Assembly: GCF_963576615.1 (NCBI RefSeq)
Contig: NC_088715.1
Coordinates: forward strand, 65,051,981 to 65,115,980
Length of the DNA: 64,000 nt
Origin: Watersipora subatra
Taxonomy: Eukaryota; Bryozoa; Gymnolaemata; Cheilostomatida; Watersiporidae
Direction of reading: 5' to 3'
The position numbers and the translations under genes are program-made. The notes beneath the pieces were generated by a model, which saw nothing but the letters and a program-made list of their open reading frames with translations, made no database searches and was not told the DNA's origin. Below, in pieces: positions 5,001 to 32,500 of this stretch (its first letter is position 1; each line of letters begins with the position of its first letter).

Positions 5001-8000
5001 CAGTATAGCGGCATGTAGGTGCAATATAGTGGTATGTAGATGCAGTATTGTGGCATGTAAGTGCAGTATTGTGGCATATAGGCGCAGTATTGTGGCATGT
5101 AGGTGCAATATAGTGGTATGTACATGTAGATGCAGTATTGTGGCATGTAGGTGCAATATCGTGGCATGTAGGTGCAGTATAGTGGCATGTAGGTGCAGCA
5201 TTGTGGTGCGTAGGTGCAGTATAATAGCATGTAGATGCAGTATTGTGGCATGTAAGTGCAGTATTGTGGCATATAGGCGCAGTATTGTGGCATGTAGGTG
5301 CAATATAGTGGCATGTAGGTACAGTATAGTGGCATGTAGGTGCAATATAGTGGTATCTAGGTGCAGTATAGTGGCATGTAGGTGCAATATAGTGGCATGT
5401 AGGTGCAGTATAGTGGCATGTAGGTGCAATATAGTGGTATCTAGGTGCAGTATTGTGGCATGAAGGTGCAGTATAGTAGCATGTAGGCTTACTTTCAAAT
5501 AACTTTTAACTTTTGAAAGTTTTGTCAAGTGGAACAGCTGTTGTGCAGTGGTGTGAGTTTTCAAAAATGTAAGTTCAATCATATTATTACTTTGTCATGA
5601 GTTGTAAAAGTTAAAATTAGCAAAAGTTGTCGATTTCTTTGCAAACCCTCATATGGCTTTCCCTAAAACGGAGCGTTATGTTGTGAGCTGCATATTCCTT
5701 TCATTTAATGTTGCTTTTAGACTGAGATAAGATACACTTGTGTTGTACTTTTACAGATTGTTCCTTGTGTTCTGGACAGAATTAGGGACTGTCCCAACAG
5801 GATCAAGGTAGCTTACAATACATTCATTTACGACATCCAAGTCTTCCAGCAGCAGTTTCTTCCAAACACGGATGCTGTGAGGTCTCTGTGTCGCCTTGTA
5901 GAAAATACTTGCCCGGAGCATGATCACTGGGTATGTTGAGGCCGTGAGATCACTGGGTATGTTGAGGCGGTGAGATCACTAGGTATGTTGAGGCGGTGAG
6001 ATCACTGGGTATGTTGAAACCGTGAGATCACTGGTTATGTTGAAGCGGTGAGATCACTGAGTATGTTGAAACCGTGAGATCACTGGGTATGTTGAGGCGG
6101 TGAGATCACTGGGTATGTTGAGGCCATGAGATCACTGGGTATGTTGAGGCCGTGAGATCACTGGGTATGTTGAAACCGTGAGATCACTGGGTATGTTGAG
6201 GCCGTGAGATCACTGGGTATGTTGAAACCGTGACATCACTGGGTATGTTGAAACCGTGAGATCACTGGGTATGTTGAAACCGTGAGATCACTGGGTATGT
6301 TGAAACCGTGAGATCACTGGGTATGTTGAGGCGGTGAGATCACTAGGTATGTTGAGGCCGTGAGATCACTGGGTATGTTGAGGCCGTGAGATCACTGGGT
6401 ATGTTGAAACCGTGAGATCACTGGGTATGTTGAGGCCGTGAGATCATTAGGTATGTTGAGGCCGTGAGATCACTGGGTATGTTGAGGCAGTGAGATCACT
6501 AGGTATGTTGAGGCCGTGAGATCACTGGGTATGTTGAGGCGGTGAGATCACTGGGTATGTTGAGGTGGTGAGATCACTGGGTATATTGAGGCTGTGAGAT
6601 CACTAGGTATGTTGAGGCTGTGAGATCACTGGGTATGTTGAGGCTGTGAGATCACTGGGTATGTTGAGGCGGTGAGATCACTAGGTATGTTGAGGCCGTG
6701 AGATCACTGGGTATGTTGAAACCGTGAGATCACTGGGTATGTTGAGGCGGTGAGATCACTGGGTATGTTGAGGCGGTGAGATCACTGGATATGTTGAGGC
6801 GGTGAGATCACTAGGTATGTTGAGGCCGTGAGATCACTGGGTATGTTGAAACCATGAGCTCACTGGGTATGTTGAGGCGGTGAGATCACTGGGTATGTTG
6901 AGGTGGTGAGATCACTAGGTAAGTTGAGGCGGTGAGATCACTGGGTATGTTGAGGCCGTGAGATCACTGGGTATGTTGAGGCCGTGAGATTACTGGGTAT
7001 GTTGAGGCGGTGAGATCACTGGGTATGTTGAGGCCGTGAGATCACTAGGTATGTTGAGGCGGTGAGATCACTGGGTATGTTGAGGCCGTGAGATCACTGG
7101 GTATGTTGAAACCGTGAGATCACTGGGTATGTTGAGGCGGTGAGATCACTGGGTATGTTGAGGCTGTGAGATCACTGGGTATGTTGAGGCGGTGAGATCA
7201 CTAGGTATGTTGAGGCCGTGAGATCACTGGGTATGTTGAAACCGTGAGATCACTGGGTATGTTGAGGCGGTGAGATCACTGGGTATGTTGAGGCGGTGAG
7301 ATCACTGGATATGTTGAGGCTGTGAGATCACTAGGTATGTTGAGGCCGTGAGATCACTGGGTATGTTGAAACCGTGAGCTCACTGGGTATGTTGAGGCCG
7401 TGAGATCACTGGGTATGTTGAGGCGGTGAGATCACTGGGTATGTTGAGGCCGTGAGATCACTGGGTATGTTGAAACCGTGAGATCACTAGGTATGTTGAA
7501 GCCGTGAGATCACTGGGTATGTTGAGGCGGTGAGATCACTGGGTATATTGAAACCGTGAGATCACTGGGTATGTTGAGGCAGTGAGATCACTGGGTATGT
7601 TGAGGCCGTGAGATCACTGGGTATGTTGAGGCCGTGAGATCACTGGGTATGTTGAGGCGGTGAGATCACTGGGTATGTTGAGGTGGTGAGATCACTGGGT
7701 ATGTTGAGGCCGTGAGATCACTGGGTATGTTGAGGCAGTGAGATCACTGGGTATGTTGAGGCCGTGAGATCACTAGGTATGTTGAGGCTGTGAGATCACT
7801 GGGTATGTTGAGGCCGTGAGATCACTGGGTATGTTGAGGCGGTGAGATCACTAGGTATGTTGAGGCCGTGAGATCACTGGGTATGTTGAGGCGGTGAGAT
7901 CACTGGGTATGTTGAGGCGGTGAGATCACTAGGTATGTTGAGGCGGTGAGATCACTGGGTATGTTGAGGCCGTGAGATCACTGGGTACGTTGAAACCGTG

Positions 8001-11000
8001 AGATCACTGGGTATGTTGAAACCGTGAGATCACTGGGTATGTTGAAACCGTGAGATCACTGGGTATGTTGAGGCCGTGAGATCACTGGGTATGTTGAGGC
8101 GGTGAGATCACTAGGTATGTTGAGGCCGTGAGATCACTGGGTATGTTGAGGCGGTGAGATCACTGGGTATGTTGAGGCGGTGAGATCACTAGGTATGTTG
8201 AGGCGGTGAGATCACTGGGTATGTTGAGGCCGTGAGATCACTGGGTACGTTGAAACCGTGAGATCACTGGGTATGTTGAAACCGTGAGATCACTGGGTAT
8301 GTTGAAACCGTGAGATCACTGGGTATGTTGAGGCCGTGAGATCACTGGGTATGTTGAGGCGGTGAGATCACTAGGTCTGTTGAGGCCGTGAGATCACTGG
8401 GTATGTTGAGGCGGTGAGATCACTGGGTATGTTGAGGCCGTGAGATCACTGGGTATGTTGAAACCGTGAGATCACTGGGTATGTTGAGGCCGTGAGATCA
8501 CTGGGTATGTTGAGGCGGTGAGATCACTAGGTATGTTGAAACCGTGAGATCACTGGGTATGTTGAGGCCGTGAGATCACTGGGTATGTTGAGGCCGTGAG
8601 ATCACTGGGTATGTTGAGGCGGTGAGATCACTGGGTATGTTGAAACCGTGAGATCACTGGGTATGTTGAAACCGTGAGATCACTGGGTATGTTGAAACCG
8701 TGAGATCACTGGGTATGTTGAGGCCGTGAGATCACTAGGTATGTTGAGGCCGTGAGATCACTGGGTATGTTGAGGCGGTGAGATCACTGGGTATGTTGAG
8801 GCCATGAGATCACTGGGTATGTTGAGGCTGTGAGATCACTAGGTATGTTGAAACCGTGAGATCACTGGGTATGTTGAGGCCGTGAGATCACTGGGTATGT
8901 TGAAACCGTGAGATCACTGGGTATGCTGAAACCGTGAGATCACTGGGTATGTTGAGGCGGTGAGATCACTGGGTATGTTGAAACCGTGAGATCACTGGGT
9001 ATGTTGAGGCGGTGAGATCACTGGGTATGTTGAGGCGGTGAGATCACTGGGTATGTTGAAACCGTGAGATCACTGGGTATGTTGAGGCCGTGAGATCACT
9101 AGGTATGTTGAAACCGTGAGATCACTGGGTATGTTGAGGCGGTGAGATCACTGGGTATGTTGAGGCGGTGAGATCACTAGGTATGTTGAGGCCGGGAGAT
9201 CACTGGGTATGTTGAGGCCGTGAGATCACTGGGTATGTTGAATCCGTGAGATCACTGGGTATGTTGAGGCGGTGAGATCACTGGGTATGTTGAGGCGGTG
9301 AGATCACTGGGTATGTTGAAACCGTGAGATCACTGGGTATGTTGAGGCCGTGAGATCACTAGGTATGTTGAAACCGTGAGATCACTGGGTATGTTGAGGC
9401 GGTGAGATCACTGGGTATGTTGAGGCGGTGAGATCACTAGGTATGTTGAGGCCGGGAGATCACTGGGTATGTTGAGGCCGTGAGATCACTGGGTATGTTG
9501 AATCCGTGAGATCACTGGGTATGTTGAGGCGGTGAGATCACTGGGTCATTGACAACGAACTTACACAAAACTTTACTAGATTTTATCAGAAATTATTGAT
9601 ATTTTTCTATCATTTCTGATCGTTTTTTATGCTTGAGGGAATCGGACTGTCAGGATGTTTCAAGTCAAAAATCAACAAAACTTCTTCACGATTAAAATAA
9701 TTCGAAAAAAATAGTTCAAAATATTGTCACTAGTTGTTATAGTTGATCTCTGCTATTAGTAGTCAGTAGCTAGTAGTTAATATTGGCTATTAATAGTTAG
9801 TAGCTAGTAGTTAATATTGGCTGTTAGTAGTCAATAGCTAGTAGTTAATATTGGCTATTAGTAGTTAATAGCTAGTAGTTAATATTGGCTATTAGTAGTC
9901 AATTGCTAGTAGTTAATATTGGCTGTTAGTAGTTAATAGCTAGTAGTTAATATTGGCTATGAGTAGTCAATAGCTAGTAGTTAATATTGGCTATTAGTAG
10001 TCAATAGGTAGTAGTTAATATTGGCTATTAGTAGTCAATAGCTAGTAGTTAATATTGGCTATTAATAGTTAATAGCTAGTAGTTAATATTGGCCATTAGT
10101 AGTCAATAGCTAGTAGTTAATATTGGCTATTAATAGTTAATAGCTAGTAGTTAATATTGGCTATTGTGTTCAGGTAGCAGCGTTTCGTGTCTCCATTCTG
10201 TCGGTCTCTTAGCAACCATAGACATCAGAATCATACGTTCTCATGATCTGAGTGTTTGCACAGCGATTTAGCTTTGCTGATTTAAATACTAAAACGTCCT
10301 AGTAATCAGATTACCTCAAACATCAAAAACAATCACAAATGATAGAAAAACACCGATAATTTCTGATAAAATCTATTAAGATCTTTTGCAATTTGATCTT
10401 AAAAAGTTTTTGATAATGTAATCAGATGGTGTAGACAGTCACATGCCATGCATCTTCATGACATGAATTTGGTTTTCTTAAGTCTGTTGTTGATTTTAAC
10501 CAGGAAATGATGAACAGCGTTACCGATGAATGCTTCGAGTCTGTTTATGACATTAGCCGTAACTCGGATGGTATTTACCTGGATCGGATAATCAAGGGGG
10601 AGGGAAATGCAGTGCCACAGATTGAGGGCATGCCTATTTGCTACTCCTTCATGAATGTTAAGGTAAAGTGGATATTCTACTGATACAGAATTGAAGTGAT
10701 TTCCTTTTTGGTAAAATTTGTTCAGGGCATAAAGAGAAGATGAATAATCTATTTATAGTGTCTCAAGTGCTTGATCTTTTCATAAAGAAGTAGTCAGTGG
10801 CTTTGTAGGTGGCAGAAATAGGTTGAGTATCGGGTAATAGAAAGACCATGTACAGATATAAGGTGGGTGGTTTGTGGGTATGAAGACGAACTACTGGTCC
10901 TATTACTACTTTAGTAATATAGGTGGTCTGTGGGTATGTAGATGAAATACTAGTACTATTGTTACTTTAATAATATGGGTGGTCTGTGGGTACGGAGATG

Positions 11001-14000
11001 AACTACTGGTCCTATTACTACTTTAGTAATATGGGTGGTTTGTGGGTACGGAGATGAACCACTGGCCCTATTACTACTTTAGTAATATGGGTGGTTTGTG
11101 GGTACGGAGATGAACCACTGGCCCTATTACTACTTTAGTAATATGGGTGGTCTGTGGGTGCGCAGATGAACTACTGGCCCTATTACTACGTTAGTAATAT
11201 GGGTGGTCTGTTAAAAGACAGAAGGTTCTATTGATACGCAGGTAAGGTGAGTACTTGTAGATGATGTGAAGTGATTGTAGAGACAAGGTTATTTTGTGTG
11301 TGGATATGGAAATAAGGTGGTCTGTAGATTTCTATGAGATGCTTTTATGATCTACAGACATGTGTTCAGGACTCTGTTCAAATGTTGCCATGTCGTCAAA
11401 ATTATCGAATGCTGGTGGAAGAGCTACTCATGAAGATTACCGCTGCATGCCGAACCTACCTTAATAGAGAGAGCACATCTTTCTTCTCAACATTGTTTCC
11501 CACGGAGTATTCTATCTCAGGTGTGACCTTCCGACCTCCATGGTGGCGGCAGTCTACTAGCCCACCAATTCAACTAACATTCGGACCAACCACTCGACCA
11601 ATCCCTCAACCAATTTCCACTCCCCCAATAGTTGGTAAGTTATAAACTTTTTATTGGAAGTCGTCCGCAGTTCACAAATAATAACTAGTTTGTTTACCCT
11701 GTATATACTAACTAATCTGATCATCACAGAAGAGAAAAATGTCTTGTAAAAAAAAACATTTACAGAAACCTGTAAGAATTTTTAAAATTTTTAGTAGCAC
11801 TCGCTAGAAGTACTAATAGTAAGTACTAATAGAAAGTACTTACTATTATTACTTACTATTATTACTTACTATTAGTACTTACTAGTAATACTACTAGTAA
11901 CTATTAAAAGTAAGTTGGGGTGAAAGGTTAAATGAAAGACTTTGGATACACTTTCTGGGCATAAAATGGTAACAGCCTAAAAACATTCTAACAATTAAGA
12001 TTCTGGGAATAACTATATAAATTATCTAGTCTATGAATTTAAGAATATAAAAAGGTTTTGGAAAGGAACTCTAATAAATAAAACTTCAACCCAAAAGGGT
12101 ATTTTTTTTAAAAAGACCTTAGCATGACAAGAAAATTCATGACAGCATGTTGGAGTCGTCATCTATTCAACAATCTTGCATTATAAAAGGAAATGTAAGC
12201 TAGAACAATGAAACCTGAATTTCCATTCTCAGAAAATTTTAAAAATGCAGTTGAATCAGCAGAAATGCAGTTGAATCAGCAGAAATGCAGTCGAATCAGC
12301 AGAAATGCAGTCGAATCAGCAGAAATGCAGTCGAATCAGCAGAAATGCAGTCGAATCAGCAGAAATGCAGTCGAATCAGCAGAAATGCAGTCGAATCAGC
12401 AGAAATGCAGTCGAATCAGCAGAAATGCAGTCGAATCAGCAGAAATGCAGTCGAATCAGCAGAAATGCAGTCGAATCAGCAGAAATGCAGTCGAATCAGC
12501 AGAAATGCAGTCGAATCAGCAGAAATGCAGTCGAATCAGCAGAAATGCAGTCGAATCAGCAGAAATGCAGTCGAATCAGCAGAAATGCAGTCGAATCAGC
12601 AGAAATGCAGTCGAATCAGGAGAAATGCAGTCGAATCAGCAGAAATGCAGTCGAATCAGCAGAAATGCAGTCGAATCAGCAGAAATGCAGTCGAATCAGC
12701 AGAAATGCAGTCGAATCAGCAGAAATGCAGTCGAATCAGCAGAAATGCAGTCGAATCAGCAGAAACGCAGTCGAATCAGCAGAAACGCAGTCGAATCAGC
12801 AGAAACGCAGTCGAATCAGCAGAAACGCAGTCGAATCAGCAGAAACGCAGTCGAATCAGCAGAAACGCAGTCGAATCAGCAGAAACGCAGTCGAATCAGC
12901 AGAAACGCAGTCGAATCAGCAGAAACGCAGTCGAATCAGCAGAAACGCAGTCGAATCAGCAGAAACGCAGTCGAATCAGCAGAAACGCAGTCGAATCAGC
13001 AGAAACGCAGTCGAATCAGCAGAAACGCAGTCGAATCAGCAGAAACGCAGTCGAATCAGCAGAAACGCAGTCGAATCAGCAGAAACGCAGTCGAATCAGC
13101 AAAAACGCAGTCGAATCAGCAGAAACGCAGTCGAATCAGCAGAAACGCAGTCGAATCAGCAGAAACGCAGTCGAATCAGCAGAAACGCAGTCGAATCAGC
13201 AGAAACGCAGTCGAATCAGCAGAAACGCAGTCGAATCAGCAGAAACGCAGTCGAATCAGCAGAAACGCAGTCGAATCAGCAGAAACGCAGTCGAATCAGC
13301 AGAAACGCAGTCGAATCAGCAGAAACGCAGTCGAATCAGCAGAAACGCAGTCGAATCAGCAGAAACGCAGTCGAATCAGCAGAAACGCAGTCGAATCAGC
13401 AGAAACGCAGTCGAATCAGCAGAAACGCAGTCGAATCAGCAGAAACGCAGTCGAATCAGCAGAAACGCAGTCGAATCAGCAGAAACGCAGTCGAATCAGC
13501 AGAAACGCAGTCGAATCAGCAGAAACGCAGTCGAATCAGCAGAAACGCAGTCGAATCAGCAGAAACGCAGTCGAATCAGCAGAAACGCAGTCGAATCAGC
13601 AGAAACGCAGTCGAATCAGCAGAAACGCAGTCGAATCAGCAGAAACGCAGTCGAATCAGCAGAAACGCAGTCGAATCAGCAGAAATGTTATTATGATAGT
13701 TTGTTATTATTATTTTCTTTATTTATATCGTCATTAAAAACCTTAAAGTTGTAGAATCGACCTGCGCGAGGATTTGTATCCTCCATGCATTCAGTAGTCT
13801 CAGGACCACTGAAGGGAAACCTTAAAGTTGTAGAATCGACCTGCGCGAGGATTTGTATCCTCCATGCATTCAGTAGTCTCAGGACCACTGAAGGGAAACC
13901 AGTAATCTTAGTTACTACTAAATGAGCGAATGGTAACATTATAACAGCAAAGTGACAGCGGCTAATATCGAAAATACTGCTGCCATGCAAAGGCAATCGT

Positions 14001-16840
14001 GGAAAACAGAACATGATAATATACACAAGAGTAAAAGGGTATATAATACAGTTATACCATGACTTATAATCACATCAAAATACTTACAATATTTTTGATA
14101 TGTAACAGAAAACTTCTGCTATACAGAAAGAATTTTCAGCATAGCATGTCCAGACATGTCGATGTCCAGCCTGTAACCTCCAGCATATCATGTCTAGCCA
14201 TGTCCAACATAGCGTGTCCAGACATGTCCAAGATAGCATGTCCAGACATGTCCAACATACCATGTCCAGACATATCCAACATAGTATGCCCACACATATC
14301 CAACATACCATGTTCAGACATGTCTAACATACCATGTCCAGTCATATCCAACATAGCATGTCCAGACATATCCAACATACCATGTCCTGACATGTCTGAC
14401 ATAGCGTGTCCAGACATGTCCAACATACCATGTCCAGACATATCCAACATACCATGCCCAGATATGTCCAACATAGCATGCTCAGACATTTCCAACATAC
14501 CATGTCCAGACATGTCCAACATAGCATGTCCAGACGTCTGACATAGCGTGTCCAAAATGTCTTAAAACATTACAGTTTGCTAATTAAAAATAGAAAAGCC
14601 AGTTGAGTTTGAAAATAAAACATAAAAATTTCAATAGAATTTATAAATTGACTTAATTTAAACCATATTCACTATTAATTAAATTAAGTTGCGCTGTGTA
14701 TCATTAGTTTTACATAAATCATTTGTGTAAATCTTATATATGATTATTTAGAGCATTGTTCATTATTTGTTGAACTCCGAAGCAAATTAGTTGACATACA
14801 ATGTATTATTGTAAAAATATTTGAGTGAACATAACAGGTTTTATATACTGAATACAGCAAATATGGAACTGAGTTCATTTGAAGGGAGAGGTTTTACTGT
14901 AGTATATAGATGTTTAACTGTAATTTGTAGAGCTTTGACTGTAGTGTGTAGAGGTTTGACTGTAGGATATAGAAGCTTGACTGTAGTATGTAGATGTTTG
15001 ACTGTAATATTTGGAGGTTTGACAGTAATATGTAGAGGTTTGACTGTAGTATGTAGAGGTTAGACTGTAGCATGTAGAGGTTTGACTGTAATATGTAGAA
15101 GTTTGACTGTAGTATGTAGAAGATTGACTGTAATATTTAGAGGTTTGACTGTAGTATGTAGATGTTTGACTGTAATATTTGGAGGTTTGACTGTGGTATG
15201 TAGAGGTTTGACTGTAGTATGTAGAGGTTAGACTGTAGCATGTAAAGGTTTGACTGTAATATGTAGAAGTTTGACTGTAGTATGTAGAAGATTGACTGTA
15301 ATATTTAGAGGTTTGACTGTAGTATGTAGAGGTTTGACTGTGATATTTAGAGGTTTGACTGTGGTATGTAGAGGTTTGACTGTAATATTTAGAGGTTTGA
15401 CTGTAGTATGTAGAGGTTTGACTGTGATATTTAGAAGTTTGACTGTGGTATGTAGAGGTTTGACTAATATTCAGAGGTTTGACTGTGGTATGTAGAGGTT
15501 TGACTGTAGTATGTGACACTTGAGACTGTTTTTTGTGACACACAAAACTATTAGTTTGACACCTGAGGCTGTGACACAACTGTTATTGTGGCATCCCTAA
15601 CTTTGATTTATGCATTTACAATCTTATCTTTACGATTTACAATATTTTACAATTTACGATCACACACTCATGTTTTCACCTATGCTGCCGCAGCTACTCC
15701 AAGAGTCATCACTGTGAATCGACCAACCGTAAGTGCTGCCTACTTTACTGCCTACTTTACAGGTTCATCATTTGCTTGTTGCTACAATGCTAACTATACG
15801 TGTATATACAATGCTAACTATGTGTATATTCAATACTAACTATACGTGTATATACAATACTAACTATCTATGTGTATATACAATGATAACTATATGTGTA
15901 TATACAATGCTAACTATATGTGTATATACAATGCTAACTATACGTGTATATACAATGCTAACTATACGTGTATATACAATGCTAACTATGTGTATATTCA
16001 ATACTAACTATACGTGTATATACAATACTAACTATCTATGTGTATATACAATGATAACTATATGTGTATATACAATGCTAACTGTATTTGTATATACAAT
16101 ACGAACTATATGTGTATATACAATGCTAACTGTATGTGTATATATTCTAATGCTGTGATGACTTGATAGCAAGGTGTGCTGCTGGTATTGAGTGGTCACA
16201 TATATTTGTCATGGCTACATACGCTTACCAAATGTGTAGTTTTTGGTAGGCATATGGTGTTCTATTTTGGTCTTAGTAATTAGTTTCTTTCAAACTAAAA
16301 GAAGAGTGGATTAGGCGCAAACATACCACCCTTTTTCATTGCTTAGAAGAAAAGACAAACTTAAAAGCTGCACTCTTTCTGTTGCACAGCGTTCTGAAGG
16401 ACATGAGCAGACAACTTTTTATATTGCACAGCAGTACATTATCTTAGTCATAACTTATCAATATTCTAAAATTTATCCAGGGGTCGAGCGTTCAGTGAGC
16501 ATTCCTTTATCATCAGCGGTTCAAAGTCTATGTATTGCTATTACTCTGTTCATAACACCCAGCATTTGTGAGTTGAAACACAACAAATCATTTGACAATC
16601 AACTATCTAAATGTTGCATCTTGACCTTGTTTGCGTAGCTGTGCCTCAGGCAAGTGCGAGGACTCACAACAAGCTATGTCAAAGTCTGTATGTCTGTATT
16701 TCTGATTACAGACAGCCACTCCACGAACTACTAGAAGGATCGCCCAGCAACAAGACAGCTCATCTACTACTCTGGAGAGCTCATTCGCACCTTTTCTCTG
16801 CATGGTGCTTTTGTCTCTCCTCTGCAAATGGCTCGTTTAA
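2084..16840 (+). CDS. Cysteine-rich, probably GPI-anchored secreted protein (spliced, 5' end not found)
   Basis: Eight exons chain in phase: 2084-2220, 4052-4153, 4604-4729, 5757-5930, 10504-10662, 11358-11634, 15694-15728 and 16712-16840 (TAA at 16838). All acceptors are AG. Donors are GTGAGT, GTCATT (weak, at 4154), GTGAGT, GTATGT, GTAAAG, GTAAGT and GTAAGT. They give 378 residues without an N-terminus. About the first 270 residues are polar and probably mostly helical, with roughly 16 cysteines including spaced pairs (VPC..RDC, RSLC..ENTC). Then follows a Pro/Thr/Ser-rich linker (TTRPIPQPISTPP). The last exon encodes a Ser/Thr-rich stretch and a hydrophobic tail (FLCMVLLSLLCKWLV) ending at the stop, as in GPI-anchor signals. 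The exon at 15694 is only 35 bp. I do not recognise the family; secretion is inferred from cysteines and tail because no signal peptide was found. Intron 4 (5931-10503) is mostly a donor-derived minisatellite. The gene is convergent with TMEM164. Confidence 0.82.
2507..2961. repeat. 24-bp minisatellite, about 19 copies
   Basis: The unit contains GGTACC and ACTAGT palindromes (GTACCACTAGTCGTACTTGT plus CTAG). Copies are nearly identical apart from the outermost ones. The period is a multiple of three, so an artefactual eight-residue peptide repeat (VVPRQVRL) is open on the minus strand. It lies in intron 1 of the cysteine-rich gene. Confidence 0.97.
2990..3350. other. GC-rich island with degenerate GGCCGG repeats
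   Basis: A sharply bounded stretch of high GC content sits inside an AT-rich intron. GCCGGC/GGCCGG and ACCGGCCACTAAGCC-like phrases recur loosely every 30-40 bp, suggesting a decayed tandem repeat or the remnant of a foreign element. No coding potential is convincing on either strand. The sequence to about 3540 returns to AT-rich and shows nothing clear. Confidence 0.55.
4866..5487. repeat. 21-bp minisatellite, about 29 copies
   Basis: The unit is CATGTAGGTGCAATATAGTG plus G, with many point variants (GCAGT/GCAAT, TAGTGG/TTGTGG). It is open in several frames on both strands because the period is 7 codons; these are not genes. It lies in intron 3 of the cysteine-rich gene. Confidence 0.97.
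5922..9546 (+). repeat. 26-bp splice-donor minisatellite, about 139 copies
   Basis: The first unit overlaps the end of exon 5757-5930: exon bases GATCACTGG (5922-5930) followed by donor GTATGTTGAGG. Every later unit repeats GATCACTGG or GATCACTAG directly followed by GTATGT, then TTGAGGCCGTGA or variants (GCGG, AAACC, GCTG). So nearly every copy keeps a donor consensus in sense orientation. Longer blocks are duplicated too: rare variants recur about 260 bp apart (CGGGAGATC near 9194 and 9454; GAATCCGTGAG near 9240 and 9500). It fills roughly four-fifths of this 4.57-kb intron. Confidence 0.97.
9560..10400. mobile_element. TIR/foldback element (family C) containing a 34-bp array
   Basis: Left arm near 9575-9640 (ATTTTATCAGAAATTATTGA, TTTTTCTATCATTTCTGAT) and right arm near 10318-10385 are inverted copies of each other. 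Similar arms occur at 27480-27880. The centre holds a minisatellite. There is no coding region. The element directly follows the end of the 26-bp array. Exact ends are not resolved. Confidence 0.7.
9741..10166. repeat. 34-bp minisatellite, about 12 copies
   Basis: The unit contains AGCTAGTAGTTAATATTGGC followed by TATTAGTAGTCAAT with minor variants. It lies in the centre of the foldback element at 9560-10400. Confidence 0.95.
10862..11212. repeat. 56-bp minisatellite, about 6 copies
   Basis: Repeats of GGGTGGTCTGTGGGTACGGA followed by GATGAACTACTGG and CTATTACTACTTTAGTAATA, in intron 5 of the cysteine-rich gene. Confidence 0.93.
12246..13686. repeat. 20-bp minisatellite, 72 copies, two variant blocks
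   Basis: The unit is CAGTCGAATCAGCAGAAATG. It has no stop in any of the three + frames and, because 20 is not a multiple of 3, each frame encodes the same 20-residue cycle. About the first 26 copies carry AAATG and all later ones AAACG, switching once near 12766. Only single copies deviate otherwise (GGAG near 12619, AAAAA near 13101). It lies in intron 6 of the cysteine-rich gene. The 509-, 489- and 463-residue frames here are artefacts. Confidence 0.97.
13741..13900. repeat. 80-bp tandem duplication with internal hairpin
   Basis: Two nearly identical 80-bp copies, each containing the inverted repeat GAGGATTTGTATCCTC. Confidence 0.9.
14139..14552. repeat. 24-bp minisatellite, about 17 copies
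   Basis: The unit is CATGTCCAGACATGTCCAAC plus ATAG/ATAC. Each unit contains the palindrome ACATGT or relatives (CATGTCnnGACATG). Open frames on both strands follow from the 8-codon period. Confidence 0.95.
14893..15515. repeat. 21-bp minisatellite with higher-order repeat
   Basis: The unit is GGTTTGACTGTAGTATGTAG plus A. A marked run (AGGTTAGACTGTAGCATGTA and its neighbours) occurs at about 15058 and again about 15226, a 168-bp (8-unit) higher-order period. Intron 6 of the cysteine-rich gene. Confidence 0.95.
15786..16146. repeat. 24-bp minisatellite with higher-order repeat
   Basis: The unit is CAATGCTAACTATATGTGTA plus TATA. A block of variants starting near 15809 recurs near 15979. Intron 7 of the cysteine-rich gene. 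Confidence 0.94.
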
Positions 16841-16969
16841 GAGAGCTATCAGAAACTTTATTCATTCATTCGCTTGCATCTATGTTTATTTCAAGAATAA
16901 TGATAATTATCAGGATTTCATGAAAATATTCATACTATTGCACAAAAAAGCGAAGATTGCACAAAGAAT

Positions 16970-16975
16970 AATAAA
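16970..16975 (+). terminator. Possible poly(A) signal of the cysteine-rich gene
   Basis: AATAAA lies 130 bp after the TAA at 16838-16840 and before the convergent TMEM164 end at 17574. The position is plausible; no other support. Confidence 0.4.
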
Positions 16976-17573
16976 TAAGTGGACCATAGGCTATGATAGG
17001 CTTGACTGTTAGTGTGAAGCGTATTATAAACTTAGAATTCCTAAAGACAGTCAAAAACAACGTTTGATAAGTCGAGATGATCTACTTAATGGTAGACCAG
17101 GTAGGTTATAAAGAAATCTTAAAAGATATGTCGACGGAGTTGCAGTTCCTACGAGATCTATCGTTCATCCGATTGGATGCATCTATTCTAAGAAATTGTG
17201 AGAGTTCAACGGCTACCGTTCCTACATGCATAATAGATGATAAATTAATACTCGGGCTATTTGTCCATTTATGATGAACAAACCAGTTAAGTTTGAAACC
17301 TAAATACAAAAAATAACTTCTAAAGAAATAGGTGCATGCACACAGGGGGCCGGTAGGACAAGGAGCTAAGGCTTTCGTGTTGGTCAAGAACAAGTTGCTT
17401 TAGCGAGTTTGCTTGCTTGACTGGAAATGAAATTTGAGTAACATTTTACATGCTAAAAAGTTCAGACACAAAACAATGTCAAGTGAATATCAACAAGCAG
17501 CAACCACAACCTTGCCGCTAACAGAGCAGCAAAGGTCGTGATGGATGACCCCCGCCAACAAATAACGTATATA

Positions 17574-20500: not shown

Positions 20501-23500
20501 TAGTTATAATACTCTAGTTAGTTATATATAAATACATAACTATAATTATAATAATTATATATATACATATATATATATATTTTCTATACAAATGTTTGAT
20601 TAAAGCTATTGCACAAAGTTTACTAAGAAAAATTGGATAATATGACGAGGTAACCGTACATTTATAGTGGCTGGTATTGAATTATTTAATTTTATGGCAA
20701 CGTAACAAAAGCAAGTTTACTGAACTTACCATAACCATTCGAGATGAATTTTAACAACGATGAAAGTATTTCGTCTCGAAACAATTGTAGTTCAATGATA
20801 GATCTCATTAGAAAAAAAGTTTTTGGTTTGTTTTGCTGGAGTATTATATATCTTTAGATAAAGCAAAAACTTGGCCATACAAGATTGAAAGTGTCAACAA
20901 AATAACTTCTTTTATCAAAAAGGGGAGAGTTGCCCTTCCCTACCAGACATCATTGGCAACTAACCAAGTTAAACCAGCGAAAAGCCACAAAAATACAGCA
21001 CACAGTTGTCCTTTCAGTCACAGGTAAGCATTTATATCTGTCAGAGCACCCATCAGCGACCTTGAAACTACACTAAAAGTAGTTACTAGCTCTAAAGTGG
21101 AAATTAATAATGGCCAATAAAAACAGTGAAATGACAGCCAGAAAAGAGAGAGGGGGGATGGAAAGAAAGTAATGACAAATTATGGGCCAGTAGCTCTGTA
21201 CAAAGAGAGGAAGTTGATAATTATATGTGAACGCTAGTCGACGTCTATAGATAGACATACCAGTTATAAATAGAGATACTAGGAGTGGATACAGATGGAC
21301 AGCTATAGACAGACATACCAGTTATAAATAGAGATATTAGGAGTGGATACAGATGAACAGCTATAGATGGACATACCAGTTATAAATAGAGATACTAGGA
21401 GTGGATACAGATGGACAGCTATAGATAGACATACCAGTTATAAATAGAGATACTAGGAGTGGATACAGATGGACAGCTATAGATAGATGTACCAGTTATA
21501 AATAGAGATATTAGGAGTGGATACAGATGAACAGCTATATATGGACATACCAGTTATAAATAGAGACACTAGGAGTGGATACAGATGGACAGCTATAGAT
21601 AGATGTACCAGTTATAAATAGAGATACTAGGAGTGGATACCGATGGACAGCTATAGATAGAGATATTAGGAGTGGATACAGATGGACAGCTATAGATAGA
21701 CATACCAGTTATAAATAGAGATACTAGGAGTGGATACAGATGGACAGCTATTAATAGATAGACATACCAGTTATAAATAGAGATACTAGGAGTGAATACA
21801 GATGGACTGCTATAGATAGACATACCAGTTATAAATAGAGATACTAGGAGTGGATACAGATGGACAGCTATAGATAGATGTACCAGTTATAAATAGAGAT
21901 ACTAGGAGTGGATACAGATGGACAGCTATAGATAGATGTACCAGTTATAAATAGAGATACTAGGAGTGGATACAGATGGACAGCAATAGATAGACGTACC
22001 AGTTATAAATAGAGATACTAGGAGTGGATACAGATGGACAGCTATAATAGATAGATGTACCAGTTATAAATAGAGATACTAGGAGTGGATACCGATGGAC
22101 AGCTATAGATAGAGATATTAGGAGTGGATACAGATGGACAGCTATAGATAGACATACCAGTTATAAATAGAGATACTAGGAGTGGATACAGATGGACAGC
22201 TATAGATAGACATACCAGTTATAAATAGAGATACTAGGAGTGAATACAGATGGACTGCTATAGATAGACATACCAGTTATAAATAGAGATACTAGGAGTG
22301 GATACAGATGGACAGCTATAGATAGATGTACCAGTTATAAATAGAGATACTAGGAGTGGATACAGATGGACAGCTATAGATAGATGTACCAGTTATAAAT
22401 AGAGATACTAGGAGTGGATACAGATGGACAGCAATAGATAGACGTACCAGTTATAAATAGAGATACTAGGAGTGGATACAGATGGACAGCTATAATAGAT
22501 AGATGTACCAGTTATAAATAGAGATACTAGGAGTGGATACCGATGGACAGCTATAGATAGAGATATTAGGAGTGGATACAGATGGACAGCTATAGATAGA
22601 CATACCAGTTATAAATAGAGATACTAGGAGTGGATACAGATGGACAGCTATAGATAGACATACCAGTTATAAATAGAGATACTAGGAGTGGATACAGATG
22701 GACAGCTATAGATAGATGTACCAGTTATAAATAGAGATACTAGGAGTGGATACAGATGGACAGCAATAGATAGACGTACCAGTTATAAATAGAGATACTA
22801 GGAGTGGATACAGATGGACAGCTATAATAGATAGATGTACCAGTAATAAATAGAGATACGAGGAGTGGATACAGATGGACAGCTATAAATAGATGTACCA
22901 GTTATAAATAGAGATACTAGGAGTGGATACAGATATAGTGCACAAATAGATGGTGTCAATCTGAGTTAAAGAATAGAGAAAGCATAATATTGTTATGCTT
23001 TATTATTTATCTTGAGTTGTTGACTGATGTTCTAAAAAAGAATCAAGGAGATTGACCAACCAGAAGCTGAGATATAGCCAGCCAAACACAGGTCTACCAA
23101 AAAAACATAAGTGTTTTGGTAATCATCAATATATGACGTATGAAATCGACTCGTGTGCCATTGGTCAATTAAGCCAACTAATGTGCTCTCCTATAACAAT
23201 CACGGCGTTTTAATTGGTTTAATCCCTGGAAGTATAGAACAATCAAATTGGGCCTAACAATCATTGCTCTGAGAATTCCGAACCAGTCCCTCTGACGTGT
23301 AGATTAGTTTTAGCATAGAATAATTACACGCATCTATTATTTCGCAACATTTCGCTATCTTGCTAGTTCAGCTCAGTTTTGTTGTTCTCCTACTTAGCTT
23401 CCCTATTCAGACTCATCTTTAGCGTTGTTCAGATTTTTTAACTATAGCTTATAAATGGAATCAATTAAATCAATCATCAATCTCGATTATCATTTGGAAT

Positions 23501-26500
23501 TTTCTACAAATTATATTAGTTACATCATTTATTCTATACGCAGTTATATTATTATTTTGTGTAATATGCATTATGATTATTATATTAATCATAAAAAATA
23601 ATCATAGATAAGATAATAGATCAATAGAAAAATCAAATCAAAAGTTATCGTTTTCTTTTCTCACAGCAAGAGCAGCACGGTCAAGTTATTCTTTTTAAGA
23701 TTATGGCTGTAGTGAACTTACAGTCTGTTAATAGTGACGATAATCATGAAAATCAACTGATTGCTGCAGTAGATACACAGTAGAAAAATGATGAATGAAC
23801 AAAAAGTCACACTCCCATTTCTTATTCTAAACCAACTGCAAATCGCGGATGTCACATATAGACTATACACGCGCCATTCGTTGAACAGAGGATCTTTGGA
23901 GCATATCCGTGGAGATCGAGTTAAAATTTGAAGCACAATAGTCAAAATCTGCTCTTCTGTTTTGAAAAACCATGGCGAGGGGTTGTGGGCAAATGCCTTT
24001 ACCACACAATGTTTGGTTGATTTTCCTGAGAAACCAGAGCTAGTCTGTAAATTATTTACTATCGCGAGAAGCGTTTCACATCTCGTAGCCAAAACAATCA
24101 TTATACGTAACGGCGGTAAGGGTGCGCAACTCCGACACATGACCATTAAGTCGATTTCATACGTCACAGTTCTCGGGATTTTCGAAGGGTTTTCCTCTGA
24201 TTCTTTATTAGGTAGACCTGTGTTTGGCTGGCTATATCTCAGCTTCTAGTGGGTCAATCTCCTTGATTCTTTTTTTAGAACATCAGTCAACACCTCAAAA
24301 TAACTAATAAAGCATAATAACATTATGCTTTCTCTGTTCTTTAACAAGTTTTTAAATCGGAAAGAGAAGAATGAGAGCGTTAATAATGGCAAACAGACAC
24401 TCTCCTGCTAGCCAAGAAACTGCTGGTGTTATTGAGCCTGCGTTCCTTACCGCATTAGGGGACTAAAGCTATATGGCTACAACAGACAGCATATGCTGCT
24501 GTAAGGAATGCCCAAGGTTGCAATAGTCAGTGACACAACATTAAAGGTTTACTTGCAACAAAATTCACATTACAGTTATTTGGTATCAAAAAGTTCACCA
24601 TGTCTTACCCTGCTGTGTTGTAGGCGCAAAATATGTGGAAATGAGATTGCAAGCGCTTAACTGCTAAAAATTGAACAGCTAATCGCAGCTATCACAAAAA
24701 CGCTGTAGATTGGAAACCCTTTCCAAAACGGCTCAAATAGGATGTAGCTGAACACCATGGCTACTGTTTACACTTTCATGCAACCTCATTCGTCGAGATA
24801 TTTTCACACATATACTTCACGCATTCAATAAAACCATGTCTATCGTCCTTACGCATCATTTTCATTATCGTTGTAATGCTGTCACAATGAGGACTGATAT
24901 CTCAAAACATACCGTAAAAATTCGTTTAATTGTTTTAGTCTTAGCTCAAAGGAGTGCATATCATCCTCTGATATACACGAGTAGCTTGTTGGTCAACTGT
25001 GATAGTCCAAAAAAGGAGTGCATATCATCCTCTGATAAACATGAGCTTGTTGGTCAACTGTGATAGTCCAAAAAAGGAGTGCATATCATCCTCTGATAAA
25101 CATGAGTAGCTTGTTGGTCAACTGTGATAGTCCAAAAAAGCCGCAGAAATTGTCCGCGCCATTTGGCAGAAAGTATGGGTCATATGATCAGATTACGACT
25201 AGATAATTAGACCTGGCTGAAACGAAACTCTAAAGTAGTGAGCATCTCTAATTGATACAGGCCTTCCGGTAGAACCCGAAGTGTTTGTCATAAACTAGTG
25301 CTACGAGACATTTTATGTTGAGCCTTTTATTGGCCTTTAATTTTACGTGATAACATCAGGTGTCAAAACAATAACCAAAATGTTTGAGAACGTCATCAAA
25401 ATAAAGAGATTCCAAACTACGGCGTTTTTTGTGATGGCTGCGATTAACTGTTCGTTTTTAGCTTTAAGAGCTTGTGATCACATTTCCACACATTTTGCAC
25501 CTACAACACAGCAGGGTAAAACATGGTGAACCTTTTGATACCAAATAACTGTAATGTGAATTTTGTTGCAAGTCAACCTTCAAAGGAGAAGAGAGGGACA
25601 GACAACTATTAGCCTGAGGAACTGCTCATATAAGACAGTAGAAGTAAGGGCGGGGGTCACACCGTAATTATCCTTACCATTCGAGTGTTAGTAACCGGAA
25701 GCAAGATAGCAACGACAGCGACGTGCAGCGAATGCATCATCACCCTGAAGACTATGGTAACCCACCTCATCGGGGGTGCTGCCAGCAGTACTATCTGCAA
25801 AAATACAAGCATCTATTCAGGCAATGCTAACAGCTTTAGAACATCGCAAAAAGGTAGATGCGCAGTTTACTACTAGCATTGCCTGAGGTCCTGTAAATGT
25901 CCGCTAAAAACTATGCTTATTTAGAGTCAGTTTTAATCATGAGAGGCTGTTATAGCTGAAGAGGGACCCAGAGTTGTCTTCCCTCGAAAGCAGTTCTGAG
26001 ACACAGCATGCTGCGTCCCTCTGATGTGCCTAAGCTAAACTAGAGAAAGTTCTAAGCAGTATGTAAATGCCTAGCATAATCAAGCATCGTCAGTTTGCAA
26101 TGGTTAAAAACAGACACAAATATGGCTGGTGTTTTCATATTAGAATGAAACCAACATGAATTCAGTGCCCTCTTGTGTGATTAGTATAGTTTGCGAGTCT
26201 CTCATTGACAATAATATGAACGAAAAAAGAAGCACCCCACATCCTTTCCAAAGAGTTGACAGTTCATTAGTTGCCAGCTGTGCTGACACATCTGTTTACT
26301 TCAAAGTCATGGCAGGAGCACGTCTCCCCTATCACAGCCTAATTGTGTCATTGTTTGAGTCATAGTGAGTAGATATACTAACCTGAGTCATAGTGAGTAG
26401 ATGTACTAACCTGAGTCATAGTGAGCAGATGTACTAACCTGAGTCATAGTGAGTAGATGTACTAACCTGAGTCACAGTGAGTAGATGTACTAACCTGAGT

Positions 26501-29500
26501 CACAGTGAGTAGATGCACTAACCTGAGCCATAGTGAGTAGATGTATTAACCTGAGCCATAGTGAGTAGATGTACTAACCCGAGTCATAGTGAGTAGATGT
26601 ACTAACCCGAGTCACAGTGAGTAGATGTACTAACCTGAGTCACAGTGAGTAGATGCACTAACCTGAGTCACATTGAGTGAATGCACTAACCTGAGTCATG
26701 GTGCGTAGATGCACTAACCTGAGTCATAGTGAGTAGATGTACTAACCTGAGTCATAGTGAGTAGATGCACTAACCTGAGTCATAGTGAGCAGATGTACTA
26801 ACCTGAATCATAGTGAGTAGATGTACTAACCTGAGTCACAGTGAGTAGATGTACTAACCTGAGTTACAGTGAGTAGATGCACTAACCTGAGTCACATTGA
26901 GCAGATGCACTAACCTGAGTCATAGTGCGTAGATGCCCTAGCCTGAGTCACATTGAGCAGATGCACTAACCTGAGTCATAGTGAGTAGATGCACTAACCT
27001 GAGTCACAGTGAGTAGATGCACTAACCTAAGTCATAGTGAGTAGATGTACTAACCTGAGTCATAGTAGGTAGATGTACTAACCTGAGTCATAGTGAGTAG
27101 ATGCAATAACCTGAGTCCCAGTGAGTAGATGCACTAACCTGAGTCATAGCGAGTAGATGCACTAACCTGAGTCATAGTGAGTAGATGTACTAACCCGAGT
27201 CATAGTGAGTAGATGTACTAACCCGAGTCATAGTGAGTAGATGCACTAACCTGAGTCATAGTAAGTAGATGTACTAACCTGAGTCATGGTAAGTAGGTGA
27301 CAGGGGTTTGCCAACCATATGACTGTGCTTGTTGACAACTTATAACCAACTTCTACTCCGAATACAAGACACAATGCTGTCAACATCAACTGTCTTGTGA
27401 GAGATATCCGCCTATCTTCTACAGATAACAGAATATCCGCTTTATAATATGGGAAGGCATCAACTACATCACCTCATGATATATATTAAATCTTTTAAAA
27501 ATTTTTTAGGAGTTTTTATCAGAAAGTATTAATAATTTTTCTATCATTTGCTATCGTTTTTGATGTTGGAAAATCGACCAAACTTGATTGCAGTTAAAAA
27601 CACTCAGATCATGAAAAAGTGTGATTATGATGTCTCTAGTTGCTTTGAGACTGACAGAGTAGAGACGTGTAATACAGTAGCTTGAACACAGGAGCCAATC
27701 TCAACTATAGCCACTAGTGATGTCATTCCGCACGTATTTTTCTTCCAATTGATTTAACGGCGATGAAGTTTTGTGGATGTTAACCTTGACACATCCTGGC
27801 AGTCAGATAAACTCAAATACAAAAAACAATAGCAAATAATAGAAAAATACCGATACTTTTTGATGAAATATATTACAATTTCGTGTGGGTTTCGATCTTT
27901 GAACAGATGAATTTAAACAGAAGGTTAACTAATGAAGACATAAGACAAAGAGGACAGACATGAGTGCTGATGGAAGAGAACGGTTCGTGTGGGTTTCGAT
28001 CTTTGAACAGATGAATTTAAACAGAAGGTTAACTAATGAAGACATAAGACAAAGAGGACAGACATGAGTGCTGATGGAAGAGAACGGCCCTGTGGGTGTC
28101 ATGTACTGCCATTTAAGGCCAATGCAAACAAGCAAACAAGGTCAGAAGCCTCCAACTGTCATAGCTTATTGATCCACTGAGCACTCACAATTTTTGTACA
28201 AGACTAGCAGCGCTTATCGATTCAGCCAATGGGAGCTGCTTCCTATTGTCCCTCCGGTTGACAGCTCAGCTTGATTTAATTGCTAGGATTGTGGAAGCTA
28301 ACCAGATGTCTGAGAGCCGAACAAGTGATAATTGCGAGGCCAAACAAAAGTCAAAGGCGAAACCATTCTATCCAGTTCCAAAGAGATCAATAATAAACAT
28401 GCTTAGAGCGTTGCAGTCACGCCATACGATTCTAATTGAAAATCTGGCCATTGCTCGGGTGACCAGGGCCATCAGACTAGCTATGTATCGATCAAGAGGT
28501 AAAAATTCATAAGCAAGTCCGCCTTAACATAGATCCATTGCAAGTGGCAGCAGACGAAGTACTCGCCCTCTGTAGGGGCCATACGAGCCGCCCATCTGAG
28601 GGGGTTCTGAAGCACTAGGATGAAAGCTATGAAAGTATGGCGACACCTCTGTTAGTATAGAATGGGATCCAACCGGAGGCGGCTAATGATCGCTATGTGA
28701 AAAGTTTTTTAATACACTCAGGCTTCAGTCTTTGGATTTTCATGACTGAAAGCACACTTACAAAATGTTTGGAAACTTACTAAATTCAGCTATCCCACAA
28801 TGCATTTACTTTATACTCATTTGACCTCAAACCATGGCTAAATATGAAAATATATTTTCTATCTCACGGTTCTCTACACACAAGACTCTCGTAGAATCTG
28901 GTCTAAGAACCTGTTTTAAGAACCTTGCCCAAGTACCAGGTCTAAAAACCTGGACTAAAGTCTAAGAACCAGGTCTATCAACCAGGTCTATCAACTCGTT
29001 CTAAAACCTAGTCTAAGAACCCGGTCTAATCTAGTCATGCAATTAGTTTATAACACAGCTTCCATTGCTGATATAACTGTCAGTGACCTCCTATCGAGCT
29101 GATATGGCCCATCACCCCTGGTAGGAAACTCCTAACCTATGCCTATACGCACCAGAGAAATAAACACAGCCACAACTCACTAGACAGCTTAAAGATGATC
29201 TCCTGTCTAGGCAGCGATAATGATAGGTTTACAGAGTTTGGCAGGCAGGTCAGGAGGAGGCAAATCTACAGTTAGGTATTGAGTAAACAATATGAAAAGA
29301 TCTCTAGTTGTCAAAATCCTGGAATGCGAAGTTAACAGGTCGCAAGAGCTGAATAAACTTTCACAGACAACAATGGTGTGTAACATACCATAGTGATGAT
29401 GTGTAACATACCATAGTGATGGCATGTAACATACCATAGTGATGACGTGTAACATACCATAGTGATGACGTGTAACATACCATAGTGATGAGGTGTAACA

Positions 29501-32500
29501 TACCATAGTGATGACGTGTAACATACCATAGTGATGGCGTGTAACATACCATAGTGATGACGTGTAACATACCATAGTGATGACATGTAACATACCATAA
29601 TGATGACGTGTAACATACCATAGTGATGACCTGTAACATACCATAGTGATGACATGTGACATACCATAGTGATGACCTGTAACATACCATAGTGATGACG
29701 TGTAACATACCATAGTGATGACGTGTAACATACCATAGTGATGAGGTGTAACATACCATAGTGATGACGTGTAACATACCATAGTGATGGCGTGTAACAT
29801 ACCATAGTGATGACATGTAACATACCATAGTGATGACATGTAACATACCATAGTGATGACGTGTAACATACCATAGTGATGACGTGTAACATACCATAGT
29901 GATGAGGTGTAACATACCATAGTGATGACGTGTAACATACCATAGTGATGGCGTGTAACATACCATAGTGATGATGTGTAACATACCATAGTGATGACAT
30001 GTAACATACCATAATGATGACGTGTAACATACCATAGTGATGACCTGTAACATACCATAGTGATGACATGTAACATACCATAGTGATGACCTGTAACATA
30101 CCATAGTGATGACGTGTAACATACCATAGTGATGACGTGTAACATACCATAGTGATGAGGTGTAACATACCATAGTGATGACGTGTAACATACCATAGTG
30201 ATGGCGTGTAACATACCATAGTGATGACGTGTAACATACCATAGTGATGACATGTAACATACCATAATGATGACGTGTAACATACCATAGTGATGACCTG
30301 TAACATACCATAGTGATGACATGTAACATACCATAGTGATGACCTGTAACATACCATAGTGATGACGTGTAACATACCATAGTGATGATATGTAACATAC
30401 CATAGTGATGACGTGTAACATACCATAGTGATGACATGTAACATACCATAGTGATGATATGTAACATACCATAGTGATGACATGTAACATACCATAGTGA
30501 TGACATGTAACATACCATAGTGATGACCTGTAACATACCATAGTGATGCAGATCCATGTCTGTGCTGATATTACTCCAGCCGACGAATGTGAAGGTAAAG
30601 CTGATGAAAAGAGCAAAAATTGTCTCGGCAATCTTCTGTGAAGTTGGAATGAAGGCAACACACTCGGCACCACCAGTACCAGGAATTGAGAAGTTCACAC
30701 CCTACAACAGTGCAATCAGTGACATGAAAGGAGCAAAACAGTAGTGCAAACTTTCGCTCTTCATGGCCTGTTACAAATATTGAGCAGAAAGAACTTTTGT
30801 TAATGATTTGCATAGGGCCTCAGGCTAACTACTAACTGATAAACCAATCGTGTCAGACCATCAGAGCTGATAAGATACAGAGCTGTAACATAGCCTGTTT
30901 TCTTTAAATTCTTCTTAGCAGTTGCTAGTCTTGCTAGTTGAGAGTCAGGAAGTAAACAGGAAGCAAACAATGATGAACGGGTTTCAGGAGAAATCCTTAC
31001 AATGTAAAAGAATATATAAAGCAAGTCCTTAGCAAACTCGGATAAACATTCGGTGAACGGATGGCGATTTTATCACTAGCGATTGTTCAAATTTATGCAC
31101 AGAATATGAAAATCATGCGCGGTTTTTCATTTCAACTTTCATTTTACAATTTTACAGTAGACAAGCTGTGTTTTACAGTAGACAAGCTGCGTTTTACAGT
31201 AGACAAGCTGTGTTTTACAGTAGACAAGCTGTGTTTTATCGTAGTTAAGCTTGTCTGATTAAATGGAGCACAAATAAAAATTATAATACTCTGTTACATC
31301 GGGAGAAACACCATCTACCAGTTTGTGCATTGCACAGGCATGAATTTCTAGCGATGACTCCATATGCTATATGTTGTTCTGTCCAAATAGAATCTGTTTG
31401 GTCTATTTGGATAACCACACAGCTCTGCATCTCCCAAATAAGTTACAGTACAAAAATATAAATATCTAATAAATATCTTCCAACAGCACTCTATCTCTGA
31501 AAAGTGTGAAATGTTATAATAACTAGAGTGTTGGAATAGGTTAAAGTTACTTTTTATCAGGTTGATGTTTCTCTCTGGAGTCACGACAGGTCCGTTTCGT
31601 GCTTCCGAACTCTCAGATGACTGGTGGTGATACACCACCAGTCAACTGAAGAGTGCAGAAGCACGAAACAGACATGGAAACATCAACATGGAAAAATATA
31701 AGTAACTTTAACCTTTTCCAACACTATAGTTATTATAAACATATACAAATGTATATAATGTATATATAGTTACAGTTGGTGTCATACATGTTGCATTTAT
31801 GTAGTCTATGCTACTTTTGTGTCACAACAAGATCAAGTAAACATCATTACATGATGAAAAGGCACCAAATACATAAATGCAACACACCTTCTATGTAATT
31901 GTTCACTTGAGTTATTTGACAAATGTAAAGGTATGGCCACACGTAACTTTTGGTGCACAATTACATGTATTTTCGCTCAGATAGAACCTTTATAGATAGA
32001 ACGGTGTGGCTGTACCTTTATTCGAAATGGTAAAAATCTAGTCTTACATGGAACATTGTTACAGAGTGAAGGATGGGCATGACTGTTGCTGATTGATTAT
32101 AGAGGTCAAAAGTTGAATGGCAGCAAACCTATGGAGCATATCAGAGAGGGAAAGACAGTAGCGTATCTCGGTTAATCAAATGAACCAGCCTGTTCTCAGT
32201 AATGCTACCAGCATTGAGTCCGCAGGGTGGTGGTTAGCTTCCTAATTGGCCTGCCAAGTAGTTCACCTCTACATGTTGAATGGTATGGCAGCTAGCTTTG
32301 TAGCTTATTTGTTGGTGTACACATACATGTTTGCTACAGCTTCGTAAACCCCCAAGTAACTCATGCATCAAGTACTAATAAAGGCAATCCATCATTTATT
32401 TTGACGCCATCAAGCCGTTTGCACATGCGCTCATTCATGAAAAAGCCGCCATATTGGTAGGAAACCATCATTATTCTCTTATTCAATAGTATCGTTTGGT

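Follow-up and report, generated by a model that had tools for sequence, protein, structure and literature searches.

Three introns in two genes of the cheilostome bryozoan Watersipora subatra open with long minisatellites whose first unit spans the exon/intron junction. All of them lie in one window (the whole stretch of DNA that was analysed, 64,000 bases at C8:65051981-65115980 of the 784-Mb genome), in which 15 introns of three genes were modelled, in close agreement with the "about sixteen" that an earlier sequence-only reading had counted. The minus-strand gene carrying arrays A2 and A3 is TMEM164 (Pfam PF14808, E 1.9e-22), and 252 residues of its spliced product are 100% identical to the NCBI protein "transmembrane protein 164-like [Watersipora subatra]". 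Array A1 belongs to a plus-strand gene (2084-16838), here called gene A, with seven exons modelled on reading frame and splice consensus. Pfam returned no match for gene A, a protein search gave no homolog at E 0.001 and no annotated protein was found; the gene is apparently lineage-restricted or unannotated.

Arrays at three splice donors

The bounds of the arrays were taken from Tandem Repeats Finder (TRF), and the junctions were then read base by base. As A1, A3 and A2 start 9, 10 and 18 bases inside the exon, respectively, their units hold the exon end together with the donor. In gene A, the exon at 5757..5930 (plus strand), an open frame with the acceptor TTACAG and the donor TGG/GTATGT, ends with nine bases (GATCACTGG) that open A1 (5922..9546, plus strand). 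This array comprises 139.4 copies of a 26-bp unit made of 9 exon and 17 intron bases with the GTATGT donor, which is in register in 136/139 copies; the junction reads ...CATGATCACTGG/GTATGTTGAGG. The intron that it opens (5931..10503, plus strand) is 4573 bp long, consists to 88% of tandem arrays and is followed in the gene model by the exon 10504..10662 (plus strand).

The two TMEM164 arrays sit in consecutive introns, all on the minus strand. The exon at 30539..30701, which belongs to PF14808 and agrees with the NCBI protein, ends with the ten bases that open A3 (29378..30548), where TRF found 50.9 copies of a 23-bp unit with the donor in register in each; the junction reads ...CATCACTATG/GTATGTTACAG, and that of the whole intron (27419..30538, 3120 bp) matches the NCBI protein. 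In the next exon (27279..27418), whose terminal peptide has NPCH and Q invariant across 9 homologs, the last 18 bases open A2 (26356..27296). Here TRF found 33.6 copies of a 28-bp unit, again with the donor in register in each (consensus CAG/GTTAGT) and with the junction ...ACCATGACTCAG/GTTAGTACATC. The corresponding intron (25795..27278, 1484 bp) is 62% tandem arrays, and the exon that follows it (25678..25794) agrees with the NCBI protein. The acceptors of the three introns, at 10503, 27419 and 25795, fall outside A1, A3 and A2, respectively. Among the modelled introns of the window, arrays span three donors and no acceptor. The sequence-only reading, which had described three introns opening with junction-spanning arrays in two genes on opposite strands, was thus confirmed by TRF and base reading. 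Assembly errors arise easily in long tandem arrays, and no homolog or annotation was found for gene A. However, a separate NCBI annotation matches the TMEM164 exons, and in the dynein genes described below paralogs conserve the exon ends as far as the junction, and we give next to no credence to the arrays being an assembly artefact or to the exon models being wrong.

The NCBI TMEM164 protein joins DMDLHHY to EDRRI across the A3 intron and LLTMTQ to IVLLAAPP across the A2 intron, which means that the annotation, as read from the protein sequence alone, has both introns spliced at the first copy. A minisatellite with multiple splice donors was reportedly described in human IFI6 (6-16), in the title of a 1995 paper by Turri. 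In the accessible text on that gene, two downstream repeat units serve as donors (PMC4526556). The W. subatra arrays likewise are minisatellites offering repeated donors, and with IFI6 as a precedent the downstream copies could act as alternative donors that lengthen the protein. The A3 array would allow this, since the exon frame stays open for 1175 bp beyond the donor, across the whole array, and every third donor would lengthen the reading frame by 23 codons; by arithmetic, however, about 1/3 of random 23-bp units are expected to stay open anyway. A stop codon lies 6 bases beyond the first donor of A1 and 30 bases beyond that of A2, and, unlike in IFI6, the TMEM164 annotation uses no donor but the first, the protein being without a repeat insert. 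A role as alternative donors is very improbable on this evidence.

The third gene of the window matches Voldacs (PF03517, E 5.6e-28) and is presumably CLNS1A/pICln; its modelled donors, of which that of the first exon is one base off, are without a spanning array. Within its first intron, at 44400-45230, there is a reverse-transcriptase-like frame that by eye resembles a long interspersed nuclear element (LINE). Over the whole window TRF reported 87 tandem-repeat rows, which merge into 59 arrays of 17,994 bases. One of them (12243-13685) repeats a 20-bp unit 72 times with a 99% match, has a plus-strand frame open across it and is apparently very young. At 27880-28087 and 13738-13900, units of 104 and 79 bp occur as two tandem copies with a 100% match, perhaps duplications caught at birth.

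Recurrence in dynein heavy-chain genes

Donor-spanning arrays were also searched for in five dynein heavy-chain regions (160 kb) and eleven further stretches (43 kb), the latter drawn from 17 of 30 dynein loci; the remaining 13 loci are contained in those five regions. Exons were identified by paralog similarity and a spliced Viterbi procedure, yielding 252 supported exons, from which 248 donors and 248 acceptors were tested after dropping 4 of each for an edge or a short intron stretch. Each junction was represented by a 40-base query that was compared with its own intron, the null being obtained from foreign introns. At a score of at least 14, recurrence was found for 5/248 donors and 2/248 acceptors, and at a score of at least 16 for 5/248 and 1/248, while the foreign-intron expectation was 0.00 in each case. 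The rate of donor arrays in the dyneins is therefore about 2%, versus 3/15 in the window.

When the five donors were checked singly, paralog homology was seen to cross the junction in three and to reach the exon end in two. Their units hold from 18 to 50 exon bases. In the dynein at L035/L036 (C3), a 53-bp unit consists of 50 exon bases encoding SLAIKIVATYTLCSEQ plus 3 intron bases, and the peptide SLAIKIVATYTLCSEQ is conserved among dynein paralogs (SLSVKIVTTYRLCSEQ in g3); this exon predates the array and so gave rise to it. The unit of the L021 dynein comprises 30 exon and 5 intron bases. A sixth donor case, with two copies, is found at g6 exon 4, an exon without hint support. Among the acceptors, g5 exon 36 has one verified array, and the second of the raw two, at g3 exon 27, belongs to an exon that lacks homology support and itself lies on an array. 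The recurrent class proposed from the window alone is thereby borne out by five more exon-derived arrays in dynein genes, and in W. subatra donor arrays form a genuine class, recurrent though rare. In a further sample, 20 SNF transporter exons hand-picked from 92 matches were searched with TRF in 250-base windows. All of these matches (20/20) were without a stop, the donor being unclear in L066, L070, L073 and L081, and arrays were found at 0/20 donors and 0/20 acceptors, a sample with little power at a rate of 2%.

Other arrays were noticed in the dynein stretches. Both fetched ends of a stretch of about 9 kb between dynein exons (L014/L031, C1:65413279-65427113) are filled by a common 38-bp unit, beginning 92 bp past an exon, and this is probably one giant intronic array. 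In the region of L039, a 17-bp unit is repeated in 308 copies with a 97% match (4407-9649), and in L042 two separate arrays within one dynein gene region (3502-3684 and 4368-4596) have a common 40-bp unit, which suggests a split or copied array.

Placement, selection and growth of the arrays

The donor arrays are probably ordinary tandem duplications that happened to span donors and are tolerated with splicing from the first donor, that is, minisatellites of the type called mirages in amphioxus. A tandem duplication would by chance span the exon/intron donor, and slippage or unequal exchange would then multiply the unit into the intron. Since exon and donor would both remain complete in the first copy, the spliceosome could continue using it and, with this copy intact, everything downstream would be intronic and free of coding constraint. 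As splicing from a later donor would in most cases cause a frameshift or introduce a stop, use of the first donor would have to dominate. Seeding occurs about as often as expected if intronic duplications fall at random; donors would tolerate it, whereas acceptors seem to tolerate it less.

Under uniform seeding, the probability that a duplication spans the donor is (u-7)/(L0+u-1), where u is the unit and L0 the original intron length, and likewise for the acceptor. For the 91 dynein arrays this predicts 5.80 donor-spanning cases, and 6 were observed. When only the 221 introns with both exons supported were considered, 61 arrays gave an expectation of 3.36, with 4 donors and 0 acceptors spanned. 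Intronic arrays are equally near both ends, 58 lying closer to donors versus 63 closer to acceptors, and the difference between 5 and 1 of 248 dynein donors and acceptors is not significant (Fisher P 0.22). With the window included, taken as 16 introns, the comparison becomes 8 versus 1 of 264 (P 0.037), although the window itself suggested the hypothesis. Donors are thus not enriched outside the window, which is a local high, and an attraction of arrays to donors, as had been supposed from the three window introns, was not recovered in the dyneins or at the SNF exons.

The absence of an excess over shuffled positions, which the sequence-only reading had named as the outcome that would speak against its class, was found in this sample for all arrays taken together, while arrays of at least 5 copies hint at a donor excess: 5 donor-spanning ones versus 2.20 expected in the dyneins (P 0.073), and 8 versus 2.45 when the window is added (P 0.004). 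Such an excess would fit donors that are mutational hotspots, at which the birth or growth of arrays is promoted by, for instance, R-loops, short direct repeats or an exon-end seed motif; so would the greater length of donor arrays and the weak motifs shared between window units, both described below. The agreement of 6 with 5.80 for all dynein arrays, the even distribution between donors and acceptors and the 0/20 SNF donors argue in the other direction, and we consider hotspots unlikely.

Several other observations also weigh against tolerated tandem duplication as the explanation. In the window, 41 arrays gave an expectation of 0.66, and 3 donors and 0 acceptors were spanned, the probability of 3 or more being 0.030 without correction for the choice of this window on account of its donor arrays. 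The deficit of acceptors on which a difference in tolerance would depend is weak, with 2 raw cases (1 verified) in the dyneins versus 5.80 expected (raw P 0.071), and P 0.044 when dyneins and window are pooled. The nine donor-spanning arrays, with 2.0-139.4 copies, are longer than the 121 other intronic arrays, whose median is 3.0 (Mann-Whitney P 0.003), and simple neutrality does not predict longer donor arrays. Finally, two of the three pairs of window units have a weak motif in common, which independent origins do not predict.

As to these motifs, the three sequences had been called unrelated, and for A1 and A2 this holds, since a gapped comparison against shuffles found no shared motif (P 0.60). 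An ungapped comparison of A1 with A3 likewise gave a chance-level match. With one gap allowed, however, A1 and A3 have ATCACT-GGTATGTT in common (P 0.0016 versus shuffled units), a match that is partly donor consensus and that has a P of 0.010 for the exon parts alone, and A2 and A3 share TCACTATG (gapped, P 0.0016 versus shuffled units). The full independence of the window units, as suggested by the ungapped comparison, is made doubtful by these weak gapped matches, although among 41 other units the top one also reaches 11 against A3, the same score as A1. The A2 consensus is CTACTCACTATG and its own exon copy CTACTTACCATG, the array form carrying the TCACTATG of A3, about 2 kb away. With regard to introners, dispersed elements that place one sequence in many introns of a genome, the 12 genome matches listed for A1 were all inside its own array, and A3 found its own array and weaker matches elsewhere. 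Seven of the latter were fetched; they are arrays with periods of 15-29, in which 13-17 of the 23 unit positions match.

The downstream donors could also have been selected, either as U1 sites protecting repeat-rich introns from premature polyadenylation or for robustness to donor mutation. In the eight donor arrays, first units included, a GT or GC donor is in register in 271/281 units, and 244/281 units equal or exceed the first one in donor score. Selection on these sites should lower their variability, but a rotation test found no significant reduction of variability in the donor 9-mer relative to the remaining stretches of the unit (raw P 0.052; P 0.32 with common variants capped). Pooled counts of changed GT positions (9/546 versus 416/7149 elsewhere) had at first pointed to selection; this inference was dropped, since according to the rotation test a few variable sites per unit suffice to produce such a difference.

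Donor scores of intronic arrays away from exons were also compared between strands. Among 67 such arrays there is a sense-strand bias (P 0.014), with 8 sense versus 5 antisense at score 7 and 5 versus 1 at a score of at least 8, and a set of 70 intronic arrays gave P 0.024; in control intron segments without arrays the sense shift was not significant (P 0.22). On the other hand, the fractions of the two strands are equal at a score of at least 6 (0.129 and 0.129), and the sense shift is not significant in arrays farther than 150 bp from the donor (P 0.12). The bias is compatible with U1-site effects but does not demonstrate them. Taking into account as well that arrays are present at only about 2% of the sampled donors, we regard selection for multiple donors, which the sequence-only reading had offered among its possible explanations, as highly unlikely.

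The length of the donor arrays and their over-representation among those of at least 5 copies might also indicate that an array, once it has captured a donor, grows beyond other intronic arrays, with splicing or co-transcriptional U1 driving or shielding its growth. We hold this to be rather doubtful; if true, donor capture would be a source of giant minisatellites and of intron expansion in W. subatra. A period divisible by three was found in 0/8 large donor arrays versus 22/70 intronic arrays, to which, with a chance of about 0.05, no weight was given.

Known counterparts and meaning

The class is not new. Judged by the structure of their units, the W. subatra arrays are of the mirage class previously described in amphioxus. 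In the accessible text of two reports, amphioxus "mirages" are tandem duplications, resembling minisatellites, whose units take in an exon/intron boundary; they occur in Adh3, the globins BflGb6 and BflGb9, TnC and PGBD5, affect both boundaries and in many units keep the AG/GT signals, the Adh3 units being 10-72 bp long (PMC3087553; PMC3902484). According to the same text, regular mRNA is reported for Adh3, globin and TnC and inferred for PGBD5, and it has been suggested that new introns can arise from mirages (PMC3087553; PMC3902484). Like these, the W. subatra units combine exon with intron bases from a single boundary, and the copies keep the splice signals. The acceptor boundary is duplicated as well (g5 exon 36), though at none of the window acceptors, and the first-donor splicing of A2 and A3 in the NCBI protein, seen in the annotation only, would parallel the regular mRNA. 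In contrast to the amphioxus cases, the host is a bryozoan, copies number up to 139, and mostly donors are involved, with one verified acceptor in the sample.

Intron gain by tandem duplication, the Rogers model in the accessible text of one of these reports (PMC3087553), resembles our case in that exon sequence is tandemly duplicated together with a splice site. It differs in that here the acceptor lies outside the array, instead of both splice sites being in the unit. In addition, none of these introns consists solely of its array, which thus adds length to an intron able to exist without it. In earthworm metallothionein, intronic minisatellites and duplications of the fourth exon absent from the transcript are described, the accessible text not stating whether splice sites are spanned (PMC12783039). 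Among the matches listed, no title concerned mirages in bryozoans or other non-chordates, in a search that mostly left subscription journals outside.

Mirages, described from lancelets, are thereby extended to a distant phylum, the Bryozoa. The results also supply a rate (5/248 sampled dynein donors), a neutral expectation and a comparison between donors and acceptors. For W. subatra, the arrays are natural experiments in splice-site choice, in which one exon is followed by up to 139 near-identical donors and the first must win.

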